Shown: positions 481 through 29,360 of the stretch, in pieces | Layout: each line of letters starts with the position of its first letter | How positions within the stretch are numbered: the first letter of the stretch is position 1 | Virus record (IMG/VR): IMGVR_UViG_3300038701_002551 | Coordinates: 1-39,302 of that record | Origin: a virus | Direction: 5' to 3' (one strand) | Length of the DNA stretch: 39,302 nucleotides | Translations under genes and position numbers: made by a program | Notes under the pieces: generated by a model | Database searches by the model: none | Told to the model about the DNA's origin: nothing | The model's input: the letters and a program-made list of their open reading frames with translations, nothing else

Positions 481-1146
481 ATGGCTTATTTATCAAAAAA
501 ATCTGTTGCTGAAAAATGCGGTGTAAAAATGCCGGCAATTACTGCTGCAATTAAGACTAAAAAACTAGTCTTAATGAAAGATGGAAAAAGGATAAACACC
601 GCCAATAAATTAAATTCAGAATATTTTTTATTTCATGAAAAAAGGCTTCAGGACCTAAAGAAAGAAAAAGAAAAAAAAACAAATAAAAAAAAACCACCAA
701 TTAAAAAACTACCAGTTAAAAAAACACCCGTTAGAAAACCAAAAACCAAAACACCACCAGCAGATGATGCACCGCCTGAAAATAAAGATGGCCAACTAAC
801 AATTTATGATTTAAATAAAATTCATAAAGAAAAAGAAATTCAGCTGAAAGAAATAAATATTGAAAATAAGAAATTAGAAAACCGCCGTTTAAGCGGTGAA
901 TTAATACCAGTTAAATATGTAAAATTGATTGTAAAAATTCAATCAAAATCATTTATTGAAAGTTATCAAAATAACCTTGAATCATTTATAATTCAATTTA
1001 TTGGACAAAATAAAATTACACCAAAAAAAGGTGCCCAGATTAAAAAACAATTAATTGATTTTATTAATAAATCACATGATGAATCAATTACACAAGCCCA
1101 GCAAAAAATGGCTGAAGCTTTTGAATTAAGTAAACAATCAAAATAA
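481..1146 (+). CDS. terminase small subunit (DNA packaging, DNA-binding)
   Basis: 221 residues. The N-terminal 30 residues (LSKKSVAEKCGVKMPAITAA) look like a winged or helix-turn-helix DNA-binding domain, as in Nu1-like small terminases. A K/P-rich linker follows (about 58-95), then a long charged helix (about 110-145) carrying KEKEIQLKEINIENKKLENR and the RRLSGELIPVKYV pattern often seen in small terminase oligomerisation regions. It would recognise the packaging site and load the large subunit. The gene order (small terminase, two small genes, GpA-type large terminase) supports this. The assignment is by motif and position, not by close similarity. Confidence 0.7.
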   Translation: MAYLSKKSVAEKCGVKMPAITAAIKTKKLVLMKDGKRINTANKLNSEYFLFHEKRLQDLKKEKEKKTNKKKPPIKKLPVKKTPVRKPKTKTPPADDAPPENKDGQLTIYDLNKIHKEKEIQLKEINIENKKLENRRLSGELIPVKYVKLIVKIQSKSFIESYQNNLESFIIQFIGQNKITPKKGAQIKKQLIDFINKSHDESITQAQQKMAEAFELSKQSK

Positions 1147-1151
1147 ATAAT

Positions 1152-1415
1152 ATGTCAAAAACAAAAGGACAGCAAAGAGTGAAAGCAGATTTCAACCCAG
1201 CAAAAAATGATGTTGTTGATAGAATAAAAAACAAATCAGCAGAATTAATTGATTTGCTTGAAGAATTACGCCCAGAATTTGACGTTACTAAAAATGAGGA
1301 TGGAACATTTACATTAAAAGGTGATTCAGAAAAAGAACGTTTAATTGAAATTTCACAAACGTATTATGAAACCGCTGCAATGTATGCTGTAAAAAGTTGT
1401 TTTACTAATGATTAA
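1152..1415 (+). CDS. Acb2/Tad1-like helical hairpin protein (candidate anti-CBASS sponge)
   Basis: 87 residues. The protein reads as two helices joined by a short beta turn. Helix one is about 19-40 (VVDRIKNKSAELIDLLEELR). Helix two is about 60-83 and ends in YYETAAMYAVKSC. The second-helix pattern (a run ending ExAxMxAxK) is what I associate with the Acb2/Tad1 hairpin family. Known Acb2 proteins, including T4 Vs.4, bind cyclic di- or trinucleotides and block CBASS signalling. Length fits the family (about 90 residues). It sits between the terminase subunits and overlaps the next gene by 8 bases. The fold resemblance is seen; ligand binding is inferred and untested. Confidence 0.5.
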   Translation: MSKTKGQQRVKADFNPAKNDVVDRIKNKSAELIDLLEELRPEFDVTKNEDGTFTLKGDSEKERLIEISQTYYETAAMYAVKSCFTND

Positions 1416-1722
1416 GAAAAACAATAAAACATTACAAGAAAGTATTGATGAATTAAATGATCATTTAAAAAAACTGATCAATTCAATGTTAGAATCATTA
1501 ATAATATTTTTTCATTTTATTAGGCCGAAATATAAACCAAAAGTTTATAGGTATTATTTAAGGTATAAATTAATAAATAATATTTGTATTTCATGGGGCC
1601 GTGATGATGAAGATGCTTTTAGTTTTAAATTTTTCAAACATAAAGGTGCATCAATTTTTAAAAGGTTTTCAATTGTTTTAGATTTTACATTTTATGGCCG
1701 CCGGTTGGTAGTCGAATTTTAA
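1408..1722 (+). CDS. hypothetical protein between terminase genes
   Basis: 104 residues, not recognised. The start codon lies inside the end of the preceding gene (8-base overlap) and the stop is 4 bases before the large terminase, so translation is probably coupled. The protein has an amphipathic N-terminal helix, a hydrophobic stretch at about 30-40 (LIIFFHFI), a tyrosine- and lysine-rich centre and a beta-like C-terminal half. It has no cysteine cluster or other motif that suggests a function. Confidence 0.6.
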   Translation: MIKKNNKTLQESIDELNDHLKKLINSMLESLIIFFHFIRPKYKPKVYRYYLRYKLINNICISWGRDDEDAFSFKFFKHKGASIFKRFSIVLDFTFYGRRLVVEF

Positions 1723-1726
1723 AATA

Positions 1727-3742
1727 ATGTCAGATAAAAATTATCAAAACATATTAAAAGATTTACTTGATGAATCAAGAATTCAAATTTCGTCAATGTC
1801 GCCTGTTGATTGGGCTGAAGCAAAGCGAATAATGACTTCAGATAATTCACCAATTAAAGGAAAATTTAGTTTTGAAAATTCACCGTACATAAAAGAACCG
1901 TTATCATGTTTGGCCCCAGATCACCCAGCAAGTATTGTTGCATTTATGAAGGGTGCCCAGCTTGGAATAACGACCGGTTTAATTGAAAATGGTATTGGCT
2001 ATATAATTGATCAACACCCCGGGAATATTTTATATTTGGTTGGTCATGATGATTTAATAAAAGAAACTGGTAAACGCCTTGATTTAATGATTGATTCAAC
2101 CGGCATAAGAAGTAAAATTAAATCAACTGTAAAAAGAATCAGAAACACAAAATCCGGTGATACTGATAAAATGAAAGAATTTGAAGGGGGTGCATTAAAA
2201 CTTGGTATTGCAAATCATAAAAGCATACGCCAAACATCAGTGAGATATGGTTTTTTTGATGATTTTGAATCAATGAAAGGTGAATCAAAAGAATCTGGTG
2301 ATCTTACAAAATTAATTGAACAACGTTTTGCATCATATTCAAAAGTGATGAAGCTTTTTTATATTTCAACCCCAGAATTAAAAGAAGGTTCAAATATTGA
2401 AAATGTTTATTTCTTAGGTGATCAGCGTAAATATCACATACCATGCCCAAACTGTAAAGAATTGATTGAATTGTTATTTTTTGGAGTTGGTGAAGGTGTT
2501 GAAAATGCTGGTGGCATGAAATGGGAATTAGATAAACGCGGTAATTTAATTGATTCATCAGTTGTTTATGAATGTCAGAAATGCCGTAAAACTTTTGATG
2601 AAGAAAATAAATTAAAACTTTTAAATTCTGGTAAATGGATTGCAACAGCATTACCATCAAGGCCCGGATATTATTCATACCATTTAAGTGCATTGTACGC
2701 CCCACCTTTTATGTACGATTGGACCCACTATGTACGCGATTATTTAGAAGCATGCCCCCCGGGCCAAGAAAAAGATGAAAGAAAATACCAAACTTTTTTA
2801 AATGTATGCTTAGGTGAAACATACCACCCAGAAACCAAAAGAATTGATGCAAATAAATTGCAACATAATGTACGAAAATATCAAGCTGGAATAATACCAG
2901 AATCATTATCAATGAAAGATGGAAACGGGCGTATTATTATGATCACATGCGGTGTTGATTTAAATGGTAAATCAGATGATGCCAGAATTGATTTTGAAGT
3001 TGTTGCATTTTCAGAAACTGGTGCAACTTATTCAATTGATCATGGTTCATTTGGTACTTTTGATAAATATGAAAACAGGCATGCAGACCGTCCAAAATAC
3101 AGGTATGAATTCGGTTATAAAAATACAGTATGGCCATTGCTTGAAGAATATATTACACAAGTTTTTGAAACTGATACAGGCCGAAAGATGGAAATAATGA
3201 CAACTGGCATTGATTCAGGGTATCAAACAGATTGGGCGTATAAATTCAGAAATGAAACCAAAGCAAAAGCAATTTGTATAAAAGGTGATGATGATGCAAA
3301 CAGATATTTAAGCCAAAGTGCCAATTTAAAAACATATAAAAATTCAAGGCAAATGCCAGAAAAATTATATTTGGCACAAAATCAATTTTCAAAAGATTTA
3401 CTGGCCCGGTATATGTCGTTAAACTGGAACCCAGAAAGCGACAAAGGACAACCAGAAGGTTTTATGAATTTTCCAACCCCAGCAGATGGAAAATATCAAT
3501 ATGTAAATTTCTTTTCTCATTTTGCAGCAGAAGAAAAACGAATGAATAAAGACGGAAAATTTAGATGGGTAAAAAGGAAAGAAACGAAAGAAGAGAGAAT
3601 TGAAAACCACCTTTACGATTGCCGCCTTTATGCTATGGTAACGAAAGATGTGGTTGTTGATGTTTTATGTAAGGCGTTTAAGGTCCATAATCCAAGTTGG
3701 ATTACTTTTGTACAGTTGATCACCAACAAGCAGAATAAATAA
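1727..3742 (+). CDS. terminase large subunit, lambda GpA family
   Basis: 671 residues, the normal length for GpA-type packaging ATPase/nucleases. Residues about 60-90 carry the divergent P-loop region FMKGAQLGITTG followed by LYLVGHDD. YGFFDDFESM (about 173-182) is a Walker B-like segment. Two CxxC pairs at about 240-243 and 283-286 form the zinc-binding insertion common in this family. The C-terminal nuclease has its acidic residues in ITCGVDLNGK (about 407) and TTGIDSGYQT (about 490). It would cut concatemers and pump DNA into proheads with the small subunit and the portal. The portal gene is more than 13 kb away, which is unusual. Confidence 0.93.
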   Translation: MSDKNYQNILKDLLDESRIQISSMSPVDWAEAKRIMTSDNSPIKGKFSFENSPYIKEPLSCLAPDHPASIVAFMKGAQLGITTGLIENGIGYIIDQHPGNILYLVGHDDLIKETGKRLDLMIDSTGIRSKIKSTVKRIRNTKSGDTDKMKEFEGGALKLGIANHKSIRQTSVRYGFFDDFESMKGESKESGDLTKLIEQRFASYSKVMKLFYISTPELKEGSNIENVYFLGDQRKYHIPCPNCKELIELLFFGVGEGVENAGGMKWELDKRGNLIDSSVVYECQKCRKTFDEENKLKLLNSGKWIATALPSRPGYYSYHLSALYAPPFMYDWTHYVRDYLEACPPGQEKDERKYQTFLNVCLGETYHPETKRIDANKLQHNVRKYQAGIIPESLSMKDGNGRIIMITCGVDLNGKSDDARIDFEVVAFSETGATYSIDHGSFGTFDKYENRHADRPKYRYEFGYKNTVWPLLEEYITQVFETDTGRKMEIMTTGIDSGYQTDWAYKFRNETKAKAICIKGDDDANRYLSQSANLKTYKNSRQMPEKLYLAQNQFSKDLLARYMSLNWNPESDKGQPEGFMNFPTPADGKYQYVNFFSHFAAEEKRMNKDGKFRWVKRKETKEERIENHLYDCRLYAMVTKDVVVDVLCKAFKVHNPSWITFVQLITNKQNK

Positions 3743-3850: not shown

Positions 3851-5368
3851 ATGGCAGCAGTTCCATCAGAATTTGTTTCAAAAGTAGTTGGTTACCAATT
3901 AACAGCGGGTGATTTTTCCGAAACAACCCCAAATTTACCACAAAGAGTTTTAATAGTTGCAGAAGCTAACGAAGCAAACCAAGGCACAATGCCAACTGGT
4001 TTAACACAAATCACATCAGATAAACAAGCTGGTGAATTATACGGTTACGGTTCGCCAATTGAATCTATGGCGCGTATTTTTTACCCAAATTCTGGTTCTG
4101 GTATTGGTGGTATTCCTGTATTTGTAGCGGTTCAAGATGAACCAGCTGGTGCAGCAGTTTTTTCAACAGATATTTCAGTTACTGGTACGGCAACAGGAAA
4201 CGCAACACATAAATTAATTATTAATGGTCGTAATATTATTGATGGTGAAAGATACGATGTAAATATATTAAAAGATGATACAGCAATTATTATTGCTGAT
4301 AAAATACGTGATGCAGTAAACGGTGTATTAAGGTCACCACTTGAAGGTTCAACAACAGGTGGTTCAGATGTTTCATTAAAATCAAAATGGGCTGGTTTAA
4401 CAGCAAATGATATTACAGTAGAAATTGATGATCAAAGTAATGCAGCCGGTATTTCTTATTCAGCCGCAATTACAAGTGCTGGTGCCGGTTCACCAACAGT
4501 TACTTCAGCATTGAATTTAATGGGTAATGAATGGTTTACAATCGTTTGTTCTGGTTATGGTATGAATACTGATATAATTGATGAATTAGAAGCGTTCAAC
4601 GGAAAACCAGACCCAAACAATCCAACAGGTAGATATTCAGGAATTGTTTTTAAACCTTTTATTGGTTTATGTGGTTCAACTGCTGATAATGAATCCGCAT
4701 TAACAGATTTAAGAAAAACAGAAGTAACGCTTGCTGTTTGTAGTGCCCCATTGTCAAAAGGTATGCAATATGAAGCGGCTGCAAATTATGCCGTACTTTA
4801 CGCAAGGCAAGCACAGGAACGCCCAGAAGCAGATATTTCAGGTTATTATTTACCAGATATGCCGGTTCCAGAAGATTGTAATATTGGAACGATGAAAGAT
4901 TACATTAATCGTGATCTTTATGTTAAAAAAGGCTGTACAACTGTTGAATGTGTTTCTGATCAGTATAAAATCGCTGATTTTGTTACAACATATCACCCGG
5001 ACGGTGAAGCTGTGCCATCATATAGGTATGTTAGAAGCTTGACACAAGATTTTAATATTAAATTTGGTTTATCATTACTTGAAGAACAATATGTTGTTGA
5101 TAATGTAATTGCTGAAGATGATCAGCCGGTTCGTGTTGATGGTGTAATTAAACCGAAATCATGGAAGGGTATTTTATATACTTATGCTGATGATTTAAGT
5201 TTAAAAGCAATCATTACAGAACCATCATTTATGAAAGATTCAATTCAGGTACAAATATCAACATCAAACCCTGAAAGACTTGATACATTTTTTAGATACA
5301 AACGTTCAGGATATGCCAGAATTTCAAGCACAGTTGCAGAAGCTGGTTTTAATTTCGGTGAATTATAA
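3851..5368 (+). CDS. contractile tail sheath protein (Mu gpL-like)
   Basis: 505 residues, normal for Mu-type sheaths. The N-terminus (residues 1-90) contains QRVLIVAEAN, TQITSDKQAGELYGYGSPI and MARIFY, the pattern seen in Mu gpL-like sheath proteins. A variable middle domain follows (about 95-215). The conserved C-terminal part includes PDMPVPEDCNIGTMKDYI, YRYVRSLTQDFNIKFGL and the final ISSTVAEAGFNFGEL. Sheath subunits form the contractile tube around the tail tube. The gene starts the tail operon and is followed 27 bases later by the tube gene, the classical order in contractile phages. Confidence 0.92.
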   Translation: MAAVPSEFVSKVVGYQLTAGDFSETTPNLPQRVLIVAEANEANQGTMPTGLTQITSDKQAGELYGYGSPIESMARIFYPNSGSGIGGIPVFVAVQDEPAGAAVFSTDISVTGTATGNATHKLIINGRNIIDGERYDVNILKDDTAIIIADKIRDAVNGVLRSPLEGSTTGGSDVSLKSKWAGLTANDITVEIDDQSNAAGISYSAAITSAGAGSPTVTSALNLMGNEWFTIVCSGYGMNTDIIDELEAFNGKPDPNNPTGRYSGIVFKPFIGLCGSTADNESALTDLRKTEVTLAVCSAPLSKGMQYEAAANYAVLYARQAQERPEADISGYYLPDMPVPEDCNIGTMKDYINRDLYVKKGCTTVECVSDQYKIADFVTTYHPDGEAVPSYRYVRSLTQDFNIKFGLSLLEEQYVVDNVIAEDDQPVRVDGVIKPKSWKGILYTYADDLSLKAIITEPSFMKDSIQVQISTSNPERLDTFFRYKRSGYARISSTVAEAGFNFGEL

Positions 5369-5395
5369 AATTAAAAAATACTTAAAAAAGATATT

Positions 5396-5803
5396 ATGGC
5401 AGTTCATGGTGATATAAAAGAAATTACATTTAACCACCCAACGGTTGGTTCTGGAACACTTTTCCCAAAAGCAAATGAATCAAATACTTTAGATACCGGA
5501 GGTTATAGAACAAATGATGATGCAAATCAAATTGTTTCTGATGGTTCATTAATCCTTCAGAAAAACAGAACCCGGGCATTTTTTGAAGCAATGGTTGAAA
5601 ATGACAATAATTTGCGTGAAGATATGCGAAAAGTTGTTGAAATCACTGAAAGCCCTTTATTGGCAGAATGGACAATTTCACTTATTGGTGGTGCAATTTA
5701 TAAAGGTTCTGGTCAACCGGTTGGTGATCTTCAAACAGATTTAAACACTGGTATGTTCACTTTAAAGGTTGCATGCGATAGAATAGAAAAAATTAGTGGA
5801 TAA
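5396..5803 (+). CDS. tail tube protein (Mu gpM-like)
   Basis: 135 residues, in the size range of Mu gpM-type tube proteins. The sequence is largely beta-type and ends in VGDLQTDLNTGMFTLKVACDRIEK, where tube proteins commonly have a conserved final strand pair. Tube subunits stack as hexamers inside the sheath and carry the DNA. Its position directly after the sheath gene and before the frameshifted chaperone gene strongly supports the role. Confidence 0.82.
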   Translation: MAVHGDIKEITFNHPTVGSGTLFPKANESNTLDTGGYRTNDDANQIVSDGSLILQKNRTRAFFEAMVENDNNLREDMRKVVEITESPLLAEWTISLIGGAIYKGSGQPVGDLQTDLNTGMFTLKVACDRIEKISG

Positions 5804-16640: not shown

Positions 16641-16946
16641 ATGAGTGATAAAATAGAATATTGCACACTTGATTTAAATCTAAGTATTTGTTCAAATGCA
16701 CGTGATGTAATCGCAAAAATTGATGCGGTAATATCTGAATTATTAGTTACTGCATTGCCTAGTGTTCAAAATGGACAATATGCAGAATATGAAATTGATA
16801 CGGGCCAAACAAAACAGAAAGTAAAATATAATGATCCATCAGAAGTTGTAAATACTATTTCTTTGTACAGGAAATTAAGAAAGCAATATGAAAATGATAT
16901 TATACCAAGGCGGGTTTCTTTGGTTGATTCAAAATCAATAAGATAA
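16641..16946 (+). CDS. head-tail joining protein, gpW-like
   Basis: 101 residues. The segment from about 30 to 95 has a helix (VIAKIDAVISELLVTALPSVQNG), a two-strand hairpin (YAEYEIDTGQTKQKVKYNDPSEV) and a second helix ending LRKQYENDIIPRR. This fits the gpW fold, and the gene lies directly before the portal gene as W lies before B in lambda. It is longer than lambda gpW (68 residues) because of an N-terminal extension. The role would be to seal DNA-filled heads before tail attachment. The stop overlaps the portal start by one base (TAATG). Confidence 0.6.
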   Translation: MSDKIEYCTLDLNLSICSNARDVIAKIDAVISELLVTALPSVQNGQYAEYEIDTGQTKQKVKYNDPSEVVNTISLYRKLRKQYENDIIPRRVSLVDSKSIR

Positions 16947-18565
16947 TGAGAAAAAATAACACATCTAGAATGATATTAATGGATGCGGCTAATAAAATAC
17001 CGTTTCCAAGTGATATAATACCAATGAATAAAATGGTATCAGATCAAAGTTCTGATGGTCCAGAAGCAAGGGCAAATTCAGTTTCTTATGGCCAAGCGTA
17101 TGTTCTTGGTTATGACGGTGAAAAGGACCGGGGCACAATGGGCACACCAATTGAATATATACCTGAATTTGAACGTTTATCAATTCGTTCTTGGCAGTCG
17201 TATTTAGAAAGTGATGTTTCACAAACAATAATAAAAAGATATGTACTTTGGGTTGTTGGTAAGGGTTTAAAATTCCAATACAACCCAATAAAACCATTAA
17301 CAGAATTTAATGAATCATTTGAAAAATCAACACGTAAAGTTGAATATATGTTTGAACTTTGGGCTGGTTCTAAAAATTCAAGCCATAATAAAGAAACTTC
17401 ATTAAATTGGCTTGGAAATGAAGCATATAAATCTGGTAAAATTGGCGGTGATGTTCTTGTTATTTTAAGATGGAAAAATAATAATCTTTCAGTTCAAAAT
17501 ATTGATGGTTCAAATGTTGGTAATCCAATGATAAAACCAACAATTACAAATGGCCATATATTAGAAAATGGTATTGAAACAAATAAAAGCGGTGAAGTTG
17601 TTGCATATTATGTAAGAACTGAACAATTAAAATATAAAAGAATTAAGGCCGTTGATCCAACAACTGGTTTGAGGGTTGCATTTATGTATTATGGTTCAAA
17701 ATTCAGAATTGATTCTGATAGGGGTTTACCAGTAATTGCAACAACATTACAATCATTAAAACAACTTGACAGGTACAAAGAAGCAACAGTTGGATCAGCT
17801 GAAGAACGGCAAAAAATCGCCTATTTCATTGAACACCATCTTGATGGTGATGGTACAAGCCCGCATGCACAAGCATTACTTGCATCATTTAATGTTGGTG
17901 CGGATTCAACAGCGCAAAATGCAACAACCCAAAACGGGGTTGAAATTGATCAAGTTGTTACAGCATCAACACAAAAACAAACTTTTAATTTATCACCCGG
18001 TTCAAAAATGAGCCAATTAGATTCAAAAAATGAAATTCATTTTTCAGAGTTTCACGGATCAGTGGCAAATATTATTTGTGCATGTGTTGGAATTCCACCG
18101 AATGTTGCATTTAGTTTATATACAGATTCTTTTTCAGCTTCAAGGGCTGCAACAAAAGATTGGGAACATACATTAAATGTTGAACGTGATGATTTTTCAT
18201 TTCAATATTATAAGCCAATTTTTGAATTTTGGCTGCACATGAATGTATTAACAAATCAATTATCATTACCGGGGTATATTGATGCGTATTTAACGCAAAA
18301 TTTATATAAACTTTCAGCGTTTAGAAATTGCCGTTTCATGGGGGCACAATTCCCGCACATAGACCCATTGAAAGAAGTTAAAGCAGAGCGCGCGAAGCTT
18401 GGACCGAAAGCAAATGATATACCACTTACAACGGTTGAAAGATCAACTGAAGCATTAAACAGTGGTGATGCGTTACAAAATATTGAAAAATTCGCTGATG
18501 AATTAGAGATTGCAGAAAAAGCCGGTATAATAACCCCGGAACCAGAACCGGGTGATGGTGAATAA
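16946..18565 (+). CDS. portal protein (lambda gpB family)
   Basis: 539 residues, usual for lambda-type portals. The sequence includes NIICACVGIPPNVAFSLYTD, FSASRAATKDWEHTLNVERDDFSFQYYKPIFEFWL and QFPHIDPLKEVKAERAKLG. These match conserved portal_2 segments: the polymerase-like 'SxxxSRA' helix, the FxxxYxPIxxxWL helix and the iDPxKExxA end. The dodecamer forms the DNA entry vertex. It is followed immediately by the antisense RHH gene, which ends two bases after the portal stop. Confidence 0.92.
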   Translation: MRKNNTSRMILMDAANKIPFPSDIIPMNKMVSDQSSDGPEARANSVSYGQAYVLGYDGEKDRGTMGTPIEYIPEFERLSIRSWQSYLESDVSQTIIKRYVLWVVGKGLKFQYNPIKPLTEFNESFEKSTRKVEYMFELWAGSKNSSHNKETSLNWLGNEAYKSGKIGGDVLVILRWKNNNLSVQNIDGSNVGNPMIKPTITNGHILENGIETNKSGEVVAYYVRTEQLKYKRIKAVDPTTGLRVAFMYYGSKFRIDSDRGLPVIATTLQSLKQLDRYKEATVGSAEERQKIAYFIEHHLDGDGTSPHAQALLASFNVGADSTAQNATTQNGVEIDQVVTASTQKQTFNLSPGSKMSQLDSKNEIHFSEFHGSVANIICACVGIPPNVAFSLYTDSFSASRAATKDWEHTLNVERDDFSFQYYKPIFEFWLHMNVLTNQLSLPGYIDAYLTQNLYKLSAFRNCRFMGAQFPHIDPLKEVKAERAKLGPKANDIPLTTVERSTEALNSGDALQNIEKFADELEIAEKAGIITPEPEPGDGE

Positions 18566-18566
18566 A

Positions 18567-18761
18567 TTACAATTCATCATCATCTGGAAAATTCGTCATA
18601 CGCATTTCAGGCGGTAATTCTGCAATATATGTGCGCAATACTGGTTTTAATAGTTGTGAAACGGTAATATCAGATTTTTTTGCAACAAATTTTATTTCAT
18701 TTTTTAAATCATCTGGTACGTGTTGAATTCTGATTTCATTGGTATAATTTGTTTTGCTCAT
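18567..18761 (-). CDS. ribbon-helix-helix regulator, antisense inside the head operon
   Basis: 64 residues. The first strand NEIRIQHVP, helix DDLKNEIKFVAKKSDIT and helix VSQLLKPVLRTYIAELP make an Arc/MetJ-type RHH DNA-binding domain, with an acidic tail (FPDDDEL). It is the only minus-strand gene in the first 26 kb, placed tail-to-tail with the portal. Its own promoter region holds two palindromes, TATTTGTACAAATA at 18775-18788 and the shared 20-bp element at 18797-18816, so autoregulation is likely. No toxin partner is adjacent, so a phage regulator is more likely than an antitoxin. Its first 16 bases are identical to those of the HTH regulator ending at 27221. Confidence 0.75.
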   Translation of the reverse strand: MSKTNYTNEIRIQHVPDDLKNEIKFVAKKSDITVSQLLKPVLRTYIAELPPEMRMTNFPDDDEL

Positions 18762-18774
18762 TTCAAAAAGTTTT

Positions 18775-18788
18775 TATTTGTACAAATA
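18775..18788. promoter_or_regulatory. perfect 14-bp palindrome over the RHH gene promoter
   Basis: TATTTGTACAAATA is its own reverse complement. It overlaps the minus-strand -7 box TATATTTG (18783-18790, read on the minus strand), so a dimeric repressor bound here would block transcription of the RHH gene. The site is 14 bases upstream of that gene's start codon. Confidence 0.5.
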
Positions 18789-18790
18789 TA
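18783..18790 (-). promoter_or_regulatory. promoter -7 box of the RHH gene
   Basis: On the minus strand this reads TATATTTG, an exact fit to TAnnTTTG. Twenty bases upstream on that strand is TTTC (18811-18814), a near match to the -33 TTTG. The shared 20-bp element lies between and over these boxes, which is a typical repressor arrangement. Confidence 0.55.
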
Positions 18791-18796
18791 AAAAAT

Positions 18797-18816
18797 TTCC
18801 TAAATATTAGGAAAAG
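18797..18816. promoter_or_regulatory. 20-bp element TTCCTAAATATTAGGAAAAG, copy 2
   Basis: It matches the element upstream of the sheath gene in 19 of 20 bases. With one base added on the left, it contains the perfect inverted repeat TTTCCTAA-ATA-TTAGGAAA (18796-18814). On the plus strand a -7-like box, TTGTTTTG, begins at 18842, again 45 bases from the element start. It lies between the divergent RHH and protease genes. Confidence 0.62.
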
Positions 18817-18853
18817 CTTTTATTAAGTTTATTAAATTTAATTGTTTTGTATA

Positions 18854-19897
18854 ATGGAAAATGAAATTTCTTTATATGGTTCAATAGAAACTTATTCATC
18901 TGAATATATTATAAATCAGATGAACAGGGTAAAAGGCAGTGATATTTCATTACGTATCAATTCAGTTGGTGGTAATGTTTTTGCCTGTTATGGGATCATA
19001 GCAAAATTTAAAGAATTCACAGGGAATAAAGAAATCAAAATTGATGGTACAGCTTATTCAATGGCCGCATTTTTTTGTGCGTATTCAAACAGCGTACAAG
19101 CACTTGATGTAAGTGAATTTATGATTCACCGCGCGGCATATCCTTCATATATTGAAAGTAACCCTGAACTTTTTACAGCAGAGAAAAAAGAACGTTTAAA
19201 TAAAGTAAATCAAGATTTACGCGCAGCATTAGAATCAAAAATTGATGTTGAAAAATTTGAAAAATTAAAAGGTGTATCAATTGATGATCTTTTTTCAATT
19301 GAAGCGGTAAAAAAAGATGTTTATTTAACAGCATCTGAAGCACTTGAAATTGGTTTAATTGATTCTATTAATGAAATCACACCAGAACAAGCAGCAGCAA
19401 TTTCAGAAAATTATGATATTGCCGCAAAGTATAATTCAGAAGCAGATTTAAAAAGTATTTACAGGCCGGAAACAGTAACCGGGAAAATTAATAATTCAAA
19501 AACTAAAAACCCTAAAAAAATGGATTTAGAAACATTGAAAAAAGATCACCCGGAAGTTCACGCACAAGCGGCAAAAGAGGGTACGAAAGAAGCAAAAGAA
19601 TCTGCAATTAAAGCTGAAAAAGAAAGAATTCAAGCATTACTTGAATTGAGAGAAGCAGACCCAGAATTAATTGATGCAAAAATTGCAGATGGTTCAAATT
19701 TAACGCAAGCTGAAGTTATTAAATTAACAAAAGCAATTTATGCAAAAGATGCAGCAAAAGATGTTGAAAAAAATGCAGCTGATGATTTGAAAACAAAATC
19801 ACCAGAATCAAAAATATCTGATGATCAACCAACAGCAGAAGAACAAGAGTATGCAGATTATGAAGCAAAAATTGATGCTGCTTTAGATATTAAATAA
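18854..19897 (+). CDS. prohead protease (ClpP-type) fused to scaffold
   Basis: 347 residues from the ATG at 18854; an in-frame TTG at 18842 is less likely because it coincides with the -7-like box. Residues 1-170 form a ClpP/S14-type protease. LRINSVGGNVF (33-43) is the oxyanion region, Ser69 in GTAYSMAA is the nucleophile and His92 in FMIHRA the general base. The C-terminal part (about 215-347) is charged and helical (EKERIQALLELREADPELIDAKIADG), like phage scaffolds. The enzyme would mature the prohead and destroy the scaffold. It is followed by decoration and capsid genes, as in lambda (C-Nu3-D-E). Confidence 0.9.
   Translation: MENEISLYGSIETYSSEYIINQMNRVKGSDISLRINSVGGNVFACYGIIAKFKEFTGNKEIKIDGTAYSMAAFFCAYSNSVQALDVSEFMIHRAAYPSYIESNPELFTAEKKERLNKVNQDLRAALESKIDVEKFEKLKGVSIDDLFSIEAVKKDVYLTASEALEIGLIDSINEITPEQAAAISENYDIAAKYNSEADLKSIYRPETVTGKINNSKTKNPKKMDLETLKKDHPEVHAQAAKEGTKEAKESAIKAEKERIQALLELREADPELIDAKIADGSNLTQAEVIKLTKAIYAKDAAKDVEKNAADDLKTKSPESKISDDQPTAEEQEYADYEAKIDAALDIK
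19520..19897 (+). CDS. possible internal-start scaffold protein (Nu3-like)
   Basis: An in-frame ATG at 19520 (MDLETLKKDHPEVHAQAAKEG) after an A-rich tract would yield a 125-residue helical scaffold alone, as lambda Nu3 is made from within gene C. The break between the protease domain and the charged coil lies just before this ATG (NNSKTKNPKK linker). Internal initiation is an inference by analogy. Confidence 0.45.
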   Translation: MDLETLKKDHPEVHAQAAKEGTKEAKESAIKAEKERIQALLELREADPELIDAKIADGSNLTQAEVIKLTKAIYAKDAAKDVEKNAADDLKTKSPESKISDDQPTAEEQEYADYEAKIDAALDIK

Positions 19898-19951
19898 TCT
19901 AAAGAAAAAAAAAGCTTAGTAAATAAATAAAAAAAATTAAAAAAACAAATC

Positions 19952-20404
19952 ATGAGTAATACAGAAAATGTAAGAAATGATAGTAATTTATCAAAACAAA
20001 ATTATAACACTGCAAAGTTGTTTTTGTTTAATAACGATTTCAGAAGAAATGAAAGCGTTTCAAATGCTGGAGGTTCTGAAATAGTTTATAAAAAAGGCAC
20101 AATTATGGGCCGTGTTGAATCAACTTTAAAAATTATTCCATTAGAATCAGATGCAACAGATGGTTCAAATGTTCCAGTTGGCGTTTTGGCAACTGATTAT
20201 ACAATTCCAGCTGCAACTTTAGGTATGCCAGTAACAATTTGTATTGGTGGTGAAGTTGAAGGTGATTTACTAATTTTCGCGAAAGCTGGTGATACATTAG
20301 ATACAGTTATTGATGGTAGAACTTTAAGAGATCGTTTAAACGGTGATACTTTAGGCATCAAAGTAATTGAATCTGTTGAAACTTCAGATTATGACAATGC
20401 ATAA
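19952..20404 (+). CDS. head decoration protein (gpD-like)
   Basis: 150 residues. A short polar N-terminal arm is followed by a beta-rich domain (VYKKGTIMGRVESTLKIIPLESDATDGSNVPVGVLATDYTI, then CIGGEVEGDLLIFAKAGD). This is the pattern of trimeric lambda gpD-type decoration proteins, which stabilise the expanded capsid. It lies between protease-scaffold and major capsid, exactly the D position. A 54-base A-rich gap precedes it; no promoter box was seen there. Confidence 0.82.
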   Translation: MSNTENVRNDSNLSKQNYNTAKLFLFNNDFRRNESVSNAGGSEIVYKKGTIMGRVESTLKIIPLESDATDGSNVPVGVLATDYTIPAATLGMPVTICIGGEVEGDLLIFAKAGDTLDTVIDGRTLRDRLNGDTLGIKVIESVETSDYDNA

Positions 20405-20464
20405 TTTTTAATGCATTATTAAAAAGAAAAAAAAACAAAATAAAAAATTAAAAAAATAGAAAGA

Positions 20465-21622
20465 ATGAAAAATTTATTGAATTTCGTGTTATTAAGTTGC
20501 ATTGCAATGCTTGGTGTATTTGCATGCATTGACCCATCAACAATTTCAGGTGGTGCCGGTGATGGTGTAATTACCGCAATGGCAATACCTTTTGTGCAAC
20601 ATAGGGGGTTATTTACAAAAAAGATTGTTGCAGTTGTTGATCAAGTAGTTGAACCAATGGCATTTTTAAGGTCGTTTTTCACTGAAGATTTGAGCCTTAC
20701 AAAAGAAGTATCAATTGAAGTAAGAAGAGGGAAAAGAAAAGTTGCTGTTGATGTTCTTAGGGGTGCAGATGGTGTCCATACAACAAGAACAAAAAGCACT
20801 GAAACAATTATTTTACCGCCTTATTATTATTTAACAACAACATTAAATGATACTGATCTTTATGAAGCAGCAATGGGATCACAAAACCCGGCTTTAATGT
20901 CAAGATTGATAAAACAAAAAGCAAATGATGTACGTGAATTGATCGCACAAGTTGAAACAGCAGAGGAATTGCAATGTGCCCAAGTTTTACAAACTGGCCA
21001 AATTCAATTAAATGAAGGTGTTGATATAAATTATGGAAGAAAAGCAGCTTCAATTGTTGATGGTGGTGCATCTACATACTGGACTGATCCAACTGTAAAC
21101 CCGCGTGATGCATTTAAAGCTGGTGCAAATTTCCTTAAAACAGAAGGGAAACTTGCTGGCGGTGGTGCATTAACAGCAATACTTGGTGAAGATGCGTATG
21201 AAGCTTTAATTGGCAACCCAAAATTTCAAGCTGCAAGTGATATAAAAGATTATGAACTTGCATTAATGAGAGAGCCACAAAGAGAATCAACAGGGGGTGT
21301 TTTACAGGGTAGGTTATCAGCTGGATCATATAAATTTAATATCTGGACTTATCCAGAAGTTTATGATACTGAATCTGCATCAAATGTACCTTACATTGCA
21401 CCGCATAACTTGGTTATTATTCCATCAAACCCAAAGTTTTTAATGACTTATGGCGCGGTTCCTCAAATCATGGAAGATGATAATTCAATGCCGCAAAAAG
21501 GTAAATACTTGATTCAAGATTTCAAAGACAAAAGAAAAGGTAATCATGAAATTGCTGTTAAATCTGCACCTGTTGCAGTTCCAGTAATGGTTGATCACAT
21601 ATATACACAAAAAGTTGCCTAA
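20465..21622 (+). CDS. major capsid protein (lambda gpE family) with signal-like N-terminus
   Basis: 385 residues. From residue 40 onward it reads as a lambda gpE-type capsid: FTKKIVAVVDQVVEPMAFLRSFF, KSTETIILPPYYYLTTTLNDTDLYE, GQIQLNEGVDINYGRK, WTDPTVNPRDAFKAGANFL, AILGEDAYEALIGNPKF and YIAPHNLVIIPSNPKFLMTYGAVPQ. Oddly, the first 21 residues (MKNLLNFVLLSCIAMLGVFAC) look like a lipoprotein signal peptide with Cys21 in a lipobox-like context. An alternative start at Met39 exists. The leader may be removed by the prohead protease or may be a delta-type assembly peptide. A strong terminator follows. Confidence 0.9.
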   Translation: MKNLLNFVLLSCIAMLGVFACIDPSTISGGAGDGVITAMAIPFVQHRGLFTKKIVAVVDQVVEPMAFLRSFFTEDLSLTKEVSIEVRRGKRKVAVDVLRGADGVHTTRTKSTETIILPPYYYLTTTLNDTDLYEAAMGSQNPALMSRLIKQKANDVRELIAQVETAEELQCAQVLQTGQIQLNEGVDINYGRKAASIVDGGASTYWTDPTVNPRDAFKAGANFLKTEGKLAGGGALTAILGEDAYEALIGNPKFQAASDIKDYELALMREPQRESTGGVLQGRLSAGSYKFNIWTYPEVYDTESASNVPYIAPHNLVIIPSNPKFLMTYGAVPQIMEDDNSMPQKGKYLIQDFKDKRKGNHEIAVKSAPVAVPVMVDHIYTQKVA

Positions 21623-26108: not shown

Positions 26109-26855
26109 TTATGATATAACAGCATTATTAAATGGTGTATATTTAAAATCAAGCACATGCATTTCACTTGAAGGTTGTGATGTTTCAATATGTTCATCTT
26201 GAATACCGTTATTTATTACAACAACAAATTTTTCTTTTCTTAGCTGCATCATAATTGCCGGATCATCAATTTTTCGTACACATTTATCATCATAAAATAT
26301 TTTAATTGAATCTGGTCTAAATTCAACCGCATAATTAATATATTTCTTATGCGGTGATTTAAACCCTAAAAAATGGCTTTTTGCTTTTAATTGTTTATGT
26401 TGTTTTGGATTTGGCCCGTAATGTAAATTTGAATTCATACGCCAAAATTTACCCCCGAACCATTCCCAGAAATACAGCCAATTAAAATAAGAACCATATT
26501 TATTTGTATAGCCTTCAAAAATATCAATTTCAGGCGGCCAAGAGTTGGCACCAGTAAGCCAAAAAGCCGGCCAAAGGTATTTACCTTCAGGAACTTTTAT
26601 AATTGCTTCAAATCGACCAAAACTAAATTTTTCTTGTGAAACAATCATACCAATTCCGTAATCAAGCTGAATAAATTTATTTTTTGAATCCAGCCAGAAT
26701 TTTTTGGGGTTGTAATGTGTTTTTAGAATAACAGTATCATCATCAAGTTTAACAACTGCATCTTTATCGCAATGATTTCTTAAATCATCTGGATGAAATG
26801 CCCCCCAATTAAACCGTGTTTGCCAGTTTAAGTTTTTCCATTTAATTATTTTCAT
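26109..26855 (-). CDS. GH16 family glycoside hydrolase
   Basis: 248 residues, the size of a single GH16 catalytic domain. The signature SWPPEIDIFEG (105-115) carries the catalytic triad Glu109 (nucleophile), Asp111 and Glu114 (acid/base) of the ExDxxE motif. Supporting segments are FSFGRFEAIIKVPEGKYLWPAFWL (77-100) and NYAVEFRPDSIKIFYDD (about 175-190). The family cleaves beta-1,3/1,4-glucans and galactans. No signal peptide is seen, so it would act after lysis or as a virion enzyme on capsule or exopolysaccharide. It faces the lysis block across a shared terminator, and the minus-strand location suggests it may be a cargo gene. Confidence 0.85.
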   Translation of the reverse strand: MKIIKWKNLNWQTRFNWGAFHPDDLRNHCDKDAVVKLDDDTVILKTHYNPKKFWLDSKNKFIQLDYGIGMIVSQEKFSFGRFEAIIKVPEGKYLWPAFWLTGANSWPPEIDIFEGYTNKYGSYFNWLYFWEWFGGKFWRMNSNLHYGPNPKQHKQLKAKSHFLGFKSPHKKYINYAVEFRPDSIKIFYDDKCVRKIDDPAIMMQLRKEKFVVVINNGIQDEHIETSQPSSEMHVLDFKYTPFNNAVIS

Positions 26856-27845: not shown

Positions 27846-28230
27846 TGTTTTATCTGTTAATGATCTTTTTAAACAAGGCATTGGTATGAAATATTGCTAT
27901 GCAATTGAAAAGGTTCAGGAAAACGTATCAATAAAAATTGATGCAATTGAAGCAATTGAAATTGGCCCCGGTTTACCGAAATTCAAAAAACAATTAGATG
28001 TTCACGTGAATAATATTAATTGTTTTTACCGATGGTTTCATATTAGAAACGGAATTTCTGATTATACTTTAATTGAAGTTTATAAATTATTTGGTGATAT
28101 ATGGCAAAAGGAACAAGAAAACAGAACTATTTTATCTTTACGTTCAGAATTCAAGCTTAAATACTTGGGTGAAGGAAAGAAATTATATATTCGCAGAATT
28201 GCAAAGTACATGAAAAATAAATCATTATGA
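27832..28230 (+). CDS. hypothetical protein before the methyltransferase
   Basis: 132 residues from the ATG at 27832 (MKNHDVLSVNDLFKQGIGM). An earlier ATG at 27781 exists but lies deep in the ASCH gene. Not recognised. The sequence contains a helix pair (FYRWFHIRNGISDYTLIEVYKLFGDIWQKEQENR) and a basic C-terminus (KKLYIRRIAKYMKNKS), consistent with nucleic-acid binding. It overlaps the methyltransferase start by 4 bases (ATGA). Confidence 0.6.
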   Translation: MKNHDVLSVNDLFKQGIGMKYCYAIEKVQENVSIKIDAIEAIEIGPGLPKFKKQLDVHVNNINCFYRWFHIRNGISDYTLIEVYKLFGDIWQKEQENRTILSLRSEFKLKYLGEGKKLYIRRIAKYMKNKSL

Positions 28231-29360
28231 AAGAAATAAATGTTTTATCATTATTTGATGGCATGTCATGCGGTCAACTCGCAATAAATCGACTTGGAAT
28301 TAATTATAATAATTATTTTGCATCAGAAATAGACAATCACGCAATCAAGGTTACGCAATCAAATTTCCCAAAAACAAAACAACTTGGTTCAGTCGTTGAT
28401 TTAGAAACCTCTAAATTACCAAAAATTGATTTATTGATTGGCGGTTCACCTTGTCAAAGCTTTAGTTTTGCGGGTAAACGCAAGGGAATGACAACAAAAA
28501 CAAATATTGAAATACTATCATTAGATCAATATTTAAAAATGAAGGAAGAAAGATTTGAATTTCATGGGCAATCATATTTATTTTGGGAATATATGAGAAT
28601 ATTAAAAGAAGTGAAGCCAAAGTATTTTATACTTGAAAATGTAGTAATGTCGAAAAACTGGGAATCAATTTTATCAAATGCGGTTGGTTGCCACCCAATT
28701 TTAATTAATTCTTCACTTTTATCAGCGCAAAACAGAAAAAGATTATATTGGACCAACATAGGTAAAGAACCTTCAGGTTTATTTGGTGATTTAAAAAATA
28801 TAATTCCACAGCCAATAGATAAAAATATTTTATTAAAAGATGTTCTTGAAATGAATGTTGATAAAAAATATTTCTTATCAGAAAAAGCCATAATTAGTTT
28901 TTATAGAAAAAACGAAAAAAACAAAAAAAACAATATAAACTTCAAATTTGAACCCACAACAGGAAATAAAAAAAGCAAAATTATTACAACCAGAAGTGGC
29001 CAAAGGTCTGAAGATAATTTTATCATTCATAATACGCAACCAAGAAGCGGTGACCCAACAAAGGGAGGGACAGGACATCTAACAAGAAATGATGGCAAAA
29101 CATATTGTTTAGATACAGGAAATACAAATGCTGTTGAAATAAAAAATGATGATAATAAATTATCATCATCAATAGATTATTTAAGTGAAAAATTAGAAAA
29201 TTCATCAATTAGAAAATTAACGCCAATTGAATGTGAACGTTTGCAAACTGTACCAGATAATTACACAAATCATGTTTCAGATACCCAACGTTATAAAATG
29301 TTAGGTAATGGCTGGACAATTGACGTCATATGTCATATTCTTAGATATGCGAAATTTTAA
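28227..29360 (+). CDS. C5-cytosine DNA methyltransferase
   Basis: 377 residues with the full motif set in order. Motif I LSLFDGMSCGQ (7-17) binds AdoMet. Motif IV GGSPCQSFS (72-80) has catalytic Cys76. Motif VI is ENV (137-139) and motif VIII is QNRKRLYW (168-175). A target-recognition region follows, with GHLTRNDGKTYCLDTGN, then motifs IX-X with RKLTPIECERLQTVPDNYT and RYKMLGNGWTIDVI. No partner endonuclease is adjacent, so it is an orphan phage methylase that most likely protects the genome from host restriction. Target sequence cannot be read from the protein. Confidence 0.95.
   Translation: MKEINVLSLFDGMSCGQLAINRLGINYNNYFASEIDNHAIKVTQSNFPKTKQLGSVVDLETSKLPKIDLLIGGSPCQSFSFAGKRKGMTTKTNIEILSLDQYLKMKEERFEFHGQSYLFWEYMRILKEVKPKYFILENVVMSKNWESILSNAVGCHPILINSSLLSAQNRKRLYWTNIGKEPSGLFGDLKNIIPQPIDKNILLKDVLEMNVDKKYFLSEKAIISFYRKNEKNKKNNINFKFEPTTGNKKSKIITTRSGQRSEDNFIIHNTQPRSGDPTKGGTGHLTRNDGKTYCLDTGNTNAVEIKNDDNKLSSSIDYLSEKLENSSIRKLTPIECERLQTVPDNYTNHVSDTQRYKMLGNGWTIDVICHILRYAKF

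Follow-up and report, generated by a model that had tools for sequence, protein, structure and literature searches.

A candidate phage sponge of the Acb2/Tad1 hairpin family, with an altered binding motif, encoded between two terminase genes

Gene content of the terminase locus

The window, i.e., the whole 39,302-nucleotide stretch of viral DNA that was analysed (IMG/VR record IMGVR_UViG_3300038701_002551), carries an open reading frame at positions 1152-1415 on the plus strand. It begins with ATG, encodes 87 amino acids, and was assigned to the FNP-type branch of Acb2/Tad1 hairpin-domain proteins from PF24729, phrog_717, its relatives and an AlphaFold2 model. The start lies 5 bases past the stop of the preceding ORF (481-1146), and the 3' end overlaps the following ORF (1408-1722) by 8 bases. 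Because relatives in F. columnare phages share 48-51% identity with the protein over 98% of its length and a further search revealed 95 relatives in IMG/VR, the ORF is more than a chance reading frame and is a genuine gene.

The ORF at 481-1146 (plus strand, 221 aa) gave a weak PHROG match to the terminase small subunit. A search for relatives of this terS using peptide patterns found none; related terS genes were found instead through relatives of the large subunit. Six related contigs each carry, directly before terL, a gene that is homologous to this protein over its full length (for the contig L103, 28% identity and E 3e-22), and synteny supports the same assignment. Downstream, positions 1727-3742 (plus strand) encode a terminase large subunit of the gpA type, as shown by matches to PF05876 (E 3e-48), PF20454 (E 1e-40) and phrog_15. 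An earlier sequence-only reading had placed the 87-aa gene between the terminase genes; this placement is correct, because 481-1146 is identified as terS by its homology to the gene preceding terL in the related contigs.

In these six contigs, whose terL genes are 43-53% identical to that of the window, terS runs directly into terL. PF24729 was not found in their records, which are partly fragments and carry no completeness estimate. Since terS abuts terL there without a PF24729 gene, the sponge-like gene and the 104-aa ORF that overlaps it (1408-1722, plus strand) look like a two-gene cassette inserted between terS and terL. For the 104-aa ORF, the second gene of this putative insertion, searches of viral contigs and phage records recovered no relatives, and neither Pfam nor PHROG assigned it to a family; it is possibly another accessory or anti-defence gene.

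The gene order of the window runs from terS-terL through tail sheath, tube, tape measure and baseplate genes to portal, protease and capsid genes (3851-5803, 16946-21622). It is thus the order of a contractile-tailed phage, with the terminase genes far from the portal gene. Elsewhere, positions 28227-29360 encode a C-5 cytosine DNA methyltransferase (PF00145) that may serve to evade restriction. The gene at 26109-26855, which runs on the minus strand opposite to the surrounding genes, encodes a member of glycosyl hydrolase family 16 (PF00722).

Family membership and predicted fold

A Pfam search using the 87-aa protein revealed a match to PF24729, the Acb2/Tad1 hairpin domain, with a score of 37.4 bits (gathering cut-off 27; E 3e-9), covering residues 14-82 of 87 and profile positions 2-55 of 58. 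The protein also matched PHROG 717, a family of unknown function (E 3e-12). In a family alignment of the window protein and 39 relatives, all 40 sequences matched PF24729 and no other Pfam family, and PF24729 did not exceed its cut-off in any of 14 control genomes. An hhalign comparison of the FNP-type branch profile with a set of 11 canonical sequences of Acb2, among them T4 Vs.4, Pseudomonas p26 (PDB ID 8H2J) and phage homologues, gave a probability of 97.1% and an E-value of 4.8e-11. When PDB sequences were searched with the branch profile, T4 Vs.4/Acb2 (PDB ID 7UQ2) came out on top, with a weak E-value of 0.022. No match was obtained when the single window sequence was searched against the PDB by phmmer, and no meaningful match was found in NCBIfam. 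The window protein therefore almost certainly belongs to the hairpin family, and the sequence-only reading, which had called it possibly Acb2/Tad1-like, held at the level of the family and its fold.

The AlphaFold2 model, built with the window protein and its 39 relatives (pLDDT 90.7), contains helices at residues 5-10, 20-38 and 59-82 and a beta-hairpin with strands at 44-47 and 53-56. The window protein is thus predicted to have the Acb2 layout of a short N-terminal helix followed by a two-helix hairpin, and the modelled monomer is the helical hairpin that was expected. The helix-hairpin-helix arrangement proposed from the sequence corresponds to helices 20-38 and 59-82, but that proposal left unmentioned the short N-terminal helix and the small beta-hairpin in the loop. 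This insertion (residues 44-56, positions 1281-1319, plus strand) lies between the two long helices and is missing in short relatives, according to both the alignment and the models. A 66-aa relative without it was predicted with a pLDDT of 94.3 and has helices at residues 3-8, 18-36 and 42-64.

A structure search of the viral models of BFVD revealed Acb2/Tad1 hairpin proteins as the two best matches (E 1.6e-4 and 2e-3). Foldseek searches of the PDB with the 87-aa model and the 66-aa relative, both of them short helical hairpins, gave nothing significant, and 7UQ2 and 8H2J were absent from the results. They were likewise absent from the VIA-align output, which only re-aligns the list supplied by Foldseek.

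T4 Acb2 (Vs.4, 7UQ2) and Pseudomonas p26 (8H2J) share with the window protein the PF24729 domain, the N-terminal helix and the two long helices; all are phage-encoded and of similar size. However, their identity to the window protein is 18-26% in the joint alignment, and they lack its extra beta-hairpin. Tad1 has the two-helix hairpin domain in common with the window protein by Pfam definition. It carries an N-terminal antiparallel beta-sheet ahead of the hairpin (PMC12043709), whereas the AlphaFold2 model of the window protein has no strand before the hairpin.

Conservation of the binding site

K26 of the window protein (positions 1227-1229, plus strand) aligns with K23 of T4 Acb2 and K26 of Pseudomonas Acb2, which we take to be the pocket lysine. 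No other residue occupies this position in any of the 18 rows of the joint alignment or in any of the 40 family members. T70 (1359-1361, plus strand) is the counterpart of T4 Acb2 T68, and this threonine is kept in 18/18 joint rows and in 37 of the 40 family members; the T68M substitution reduces binding in T4 Acb2 (PMC12657230). M77 is invariant in both the FNP-type and the canonical Acb2 branches of the 18-row alignment.

T4 Acb2 requires Y8 and F82 for cyclic dinucleotides, and F82 stacks on the ligand (PMC12657218). F84 of the window protein (1401-1403, plus strand) aligns with F82; this column holds phenylalanine in 12 family members, the window protein included, and threonine in the other 28. 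The tyrosine at T4 Y8 (Y11 in Pseudomonas), in contrast, has no counterpart in the FNP-type branch, where its column holds Q8 or K11 of the window protein, according to the alignment used, and is variable or basic across the branch. The nearest aromatic residue is the invariant F14, but the profile alignment sets it at T4 H11 and not at Y8. F14 belongs to the FNP-branch motif F14-N15-P16 (1191-1199, plus strand), which the alignment and the profile comparison locate near the Y8 region; F14 and N15 are invariant in 40/40 members, P16 is present in 38/40, and R9 is near-invariant in the branch. In place of GY(R/K), the motif of T4 and Pseudomonas Acb2 that contains the binding tyrosine, the whole branch has R-V-x-x-x-F-N-P. 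As regards the expected pocket residues, the lysine and the threonine are kept and the phenylalanine is aligned, whereas the N-terminal tyrosine is replaced.

Distribution and genomic neighbourhoods

A tblastn search against phage records revealed relatives in 146 Flavobacterium phages; among the matches listed, they are annotated as 'hypothetical protein'. Gene product 60 of FCL-2 and its homologues in F. columnare phages and elemoviruses resemble the window protein in carrying the FNP motif and in being 48-51% identical near full length (48% for the Flavobacterium elemoviruses). The 75-aa versions of F. columnare phages, however, lack the beta-hairpin insertion, and the genes of the FCL-2 gp60 type lie outside the packaging operon, unlike the window gene. 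The 95 IMG/VR relatives were obtained in a scan with a five-sequence alignment, and 80 of them were kept. A DNA search with positions 1-25000 of the window against phage records gave no match; the nearest relatives point to Bacteroidota as the host bacterium.

The FNP-type profile was also searched in 199 genomes of the order to which the Flavobacteriales MAG behind locus L089 belongs. A match was found in that one genome only, and the branch is therefore rarely resident in chromosomes of this order. CBASS had been described as common in Bacteroidota. It is present, but in a minority, since a CD-NTase exceeded the SMODS cut-off in 14 of these 199 genomes of one order, as counted with the SMODS model alone.

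The neighbourhoods given here are individual example loci and not a census over all relatives. Genes of the FNP-type branch occur near portal genes (L002, L023, L046, L084), beside terL (L038/L039, L051, L068), and near genes for DNA polymerase (L029), a RecE-like exonuclease (L012, L015) and a DNA methyltransferase (L009); the elemovirus relatives adjoin an ERF recombinase gene. Canonical Acb2 homologues adjoin a portal gene in Vibrio D96a and a structural gene in PaMx41, while others lie beside lysis genes and one is found inside a Mu-like head module. The idea that a packaging, late position is unexpected for an anti-defence gene was therefore rejected, as relatives and true Acb2 homologues alike adjoin portal, terminase, capsid or lysis genes. 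The varied position of the branch favours an accessory gene over a structural part.

In Salmonella phage Melville, the homologue of T4 Acb2 (L092, 101-379) contains an in-frame stop within its reading frame, as does the acb2 gene of PaMx41 (L094, 3983-4255). These stops suggest that acb2 is occasionally lost.

Discussion

The window protein belongs to the Acb2/Tad1 hairpin family, in a branch whose binding motif, as judged by alignment, is altered. We consider it probable, on the basis of sequence and model, that it acts for the phage as a small sponge with Acb2-type binding of cyclic nucleotides. The subunit, a predicted short N-terminal helix plus two-helix hairpin, would probably assemble into a hexamer like that of Acb2. 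Such a hexamer would tightly bind the cyclic oligonucleotide alarm signals of host CBASS or related defences; the signal would be held and not cut, so that the effector would not be activated. The gene appears to have been inserted with its neighbour as a cassette between terS and terL, and it is probably expressed together with the packaging genes.

An Acb2-type function is not taken for granted, mainly because the N-terminal tyrosine is not conserved. The protein could share its descent with Acb2 and no longer bind in the Acb2 manner, its FNP-built pocket serving another ligand (gcADPR of Thoeris, or an unnamed nucleotide) or the protein a different role. The branch-wide exchange of GY(R/K) for R-V-x-x-x-F-N-P fits this explanation, and the strongly conserved polar residues R9, N15, K28, R63, E73 and K81 differ from the Acb2 set, suggesting a somewhat different site. 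However, the pocket lysine and threonine are kept, and sponge families vary in ligand on the same scaffold (PMC12043709). We therefore regard a protein that has left Acb2-style binding as rather unlikely.

Much less probable is a small structural or packaging helper, e.g., an accessory protein of the terminase or of head assembly. Its position between terS and terL, and the location of relatives next to portal or terL genes, would suit such a role, but the six related phages that share this terS-terL pair yielded no such gene, other relatives adjoin DNA polymerase, RecE-like exonuclease and ERF recombinase genes, and the family model that is matched is that of Acb2/Tad1. Short helical proteins are also known to give weak spurious matches, and the Foldseek search of the PDB yielded nothing significant, which would agree with a chance likeness to the hairpin model. 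Such a coincidence is nevertheless hardly credible for a score 10 bits above a curated cut-off, with every aligned member matching the same model, the low E-value of the profile-profile comparison and control genomes that stayed below the cut-off.

Returning to the sponge that we favour, the window protein is a testable anti-defence candidate, as yet without a name, in phages of Flavobacterium and relatives. If it does not bind, the Pfam name over-predicts function; if it binds, Acb2-type sponges would cover ligand chemistry and hosts beyond those known so far. More tentatively, the FNP-type branch (95 IMG/VR loci in one scan, from Flavobacterium and other hosts) might be a large group of sponges with a pocket rebuilt around R9, F14 and N15 that binds other immune nucleotides. 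Acb2 has been described as a 'relatively rare', restricted family (PMC11722364). If the rebuilt-pocket reading is true, Acb2-type sponges would be far more widespread than that description suggests.
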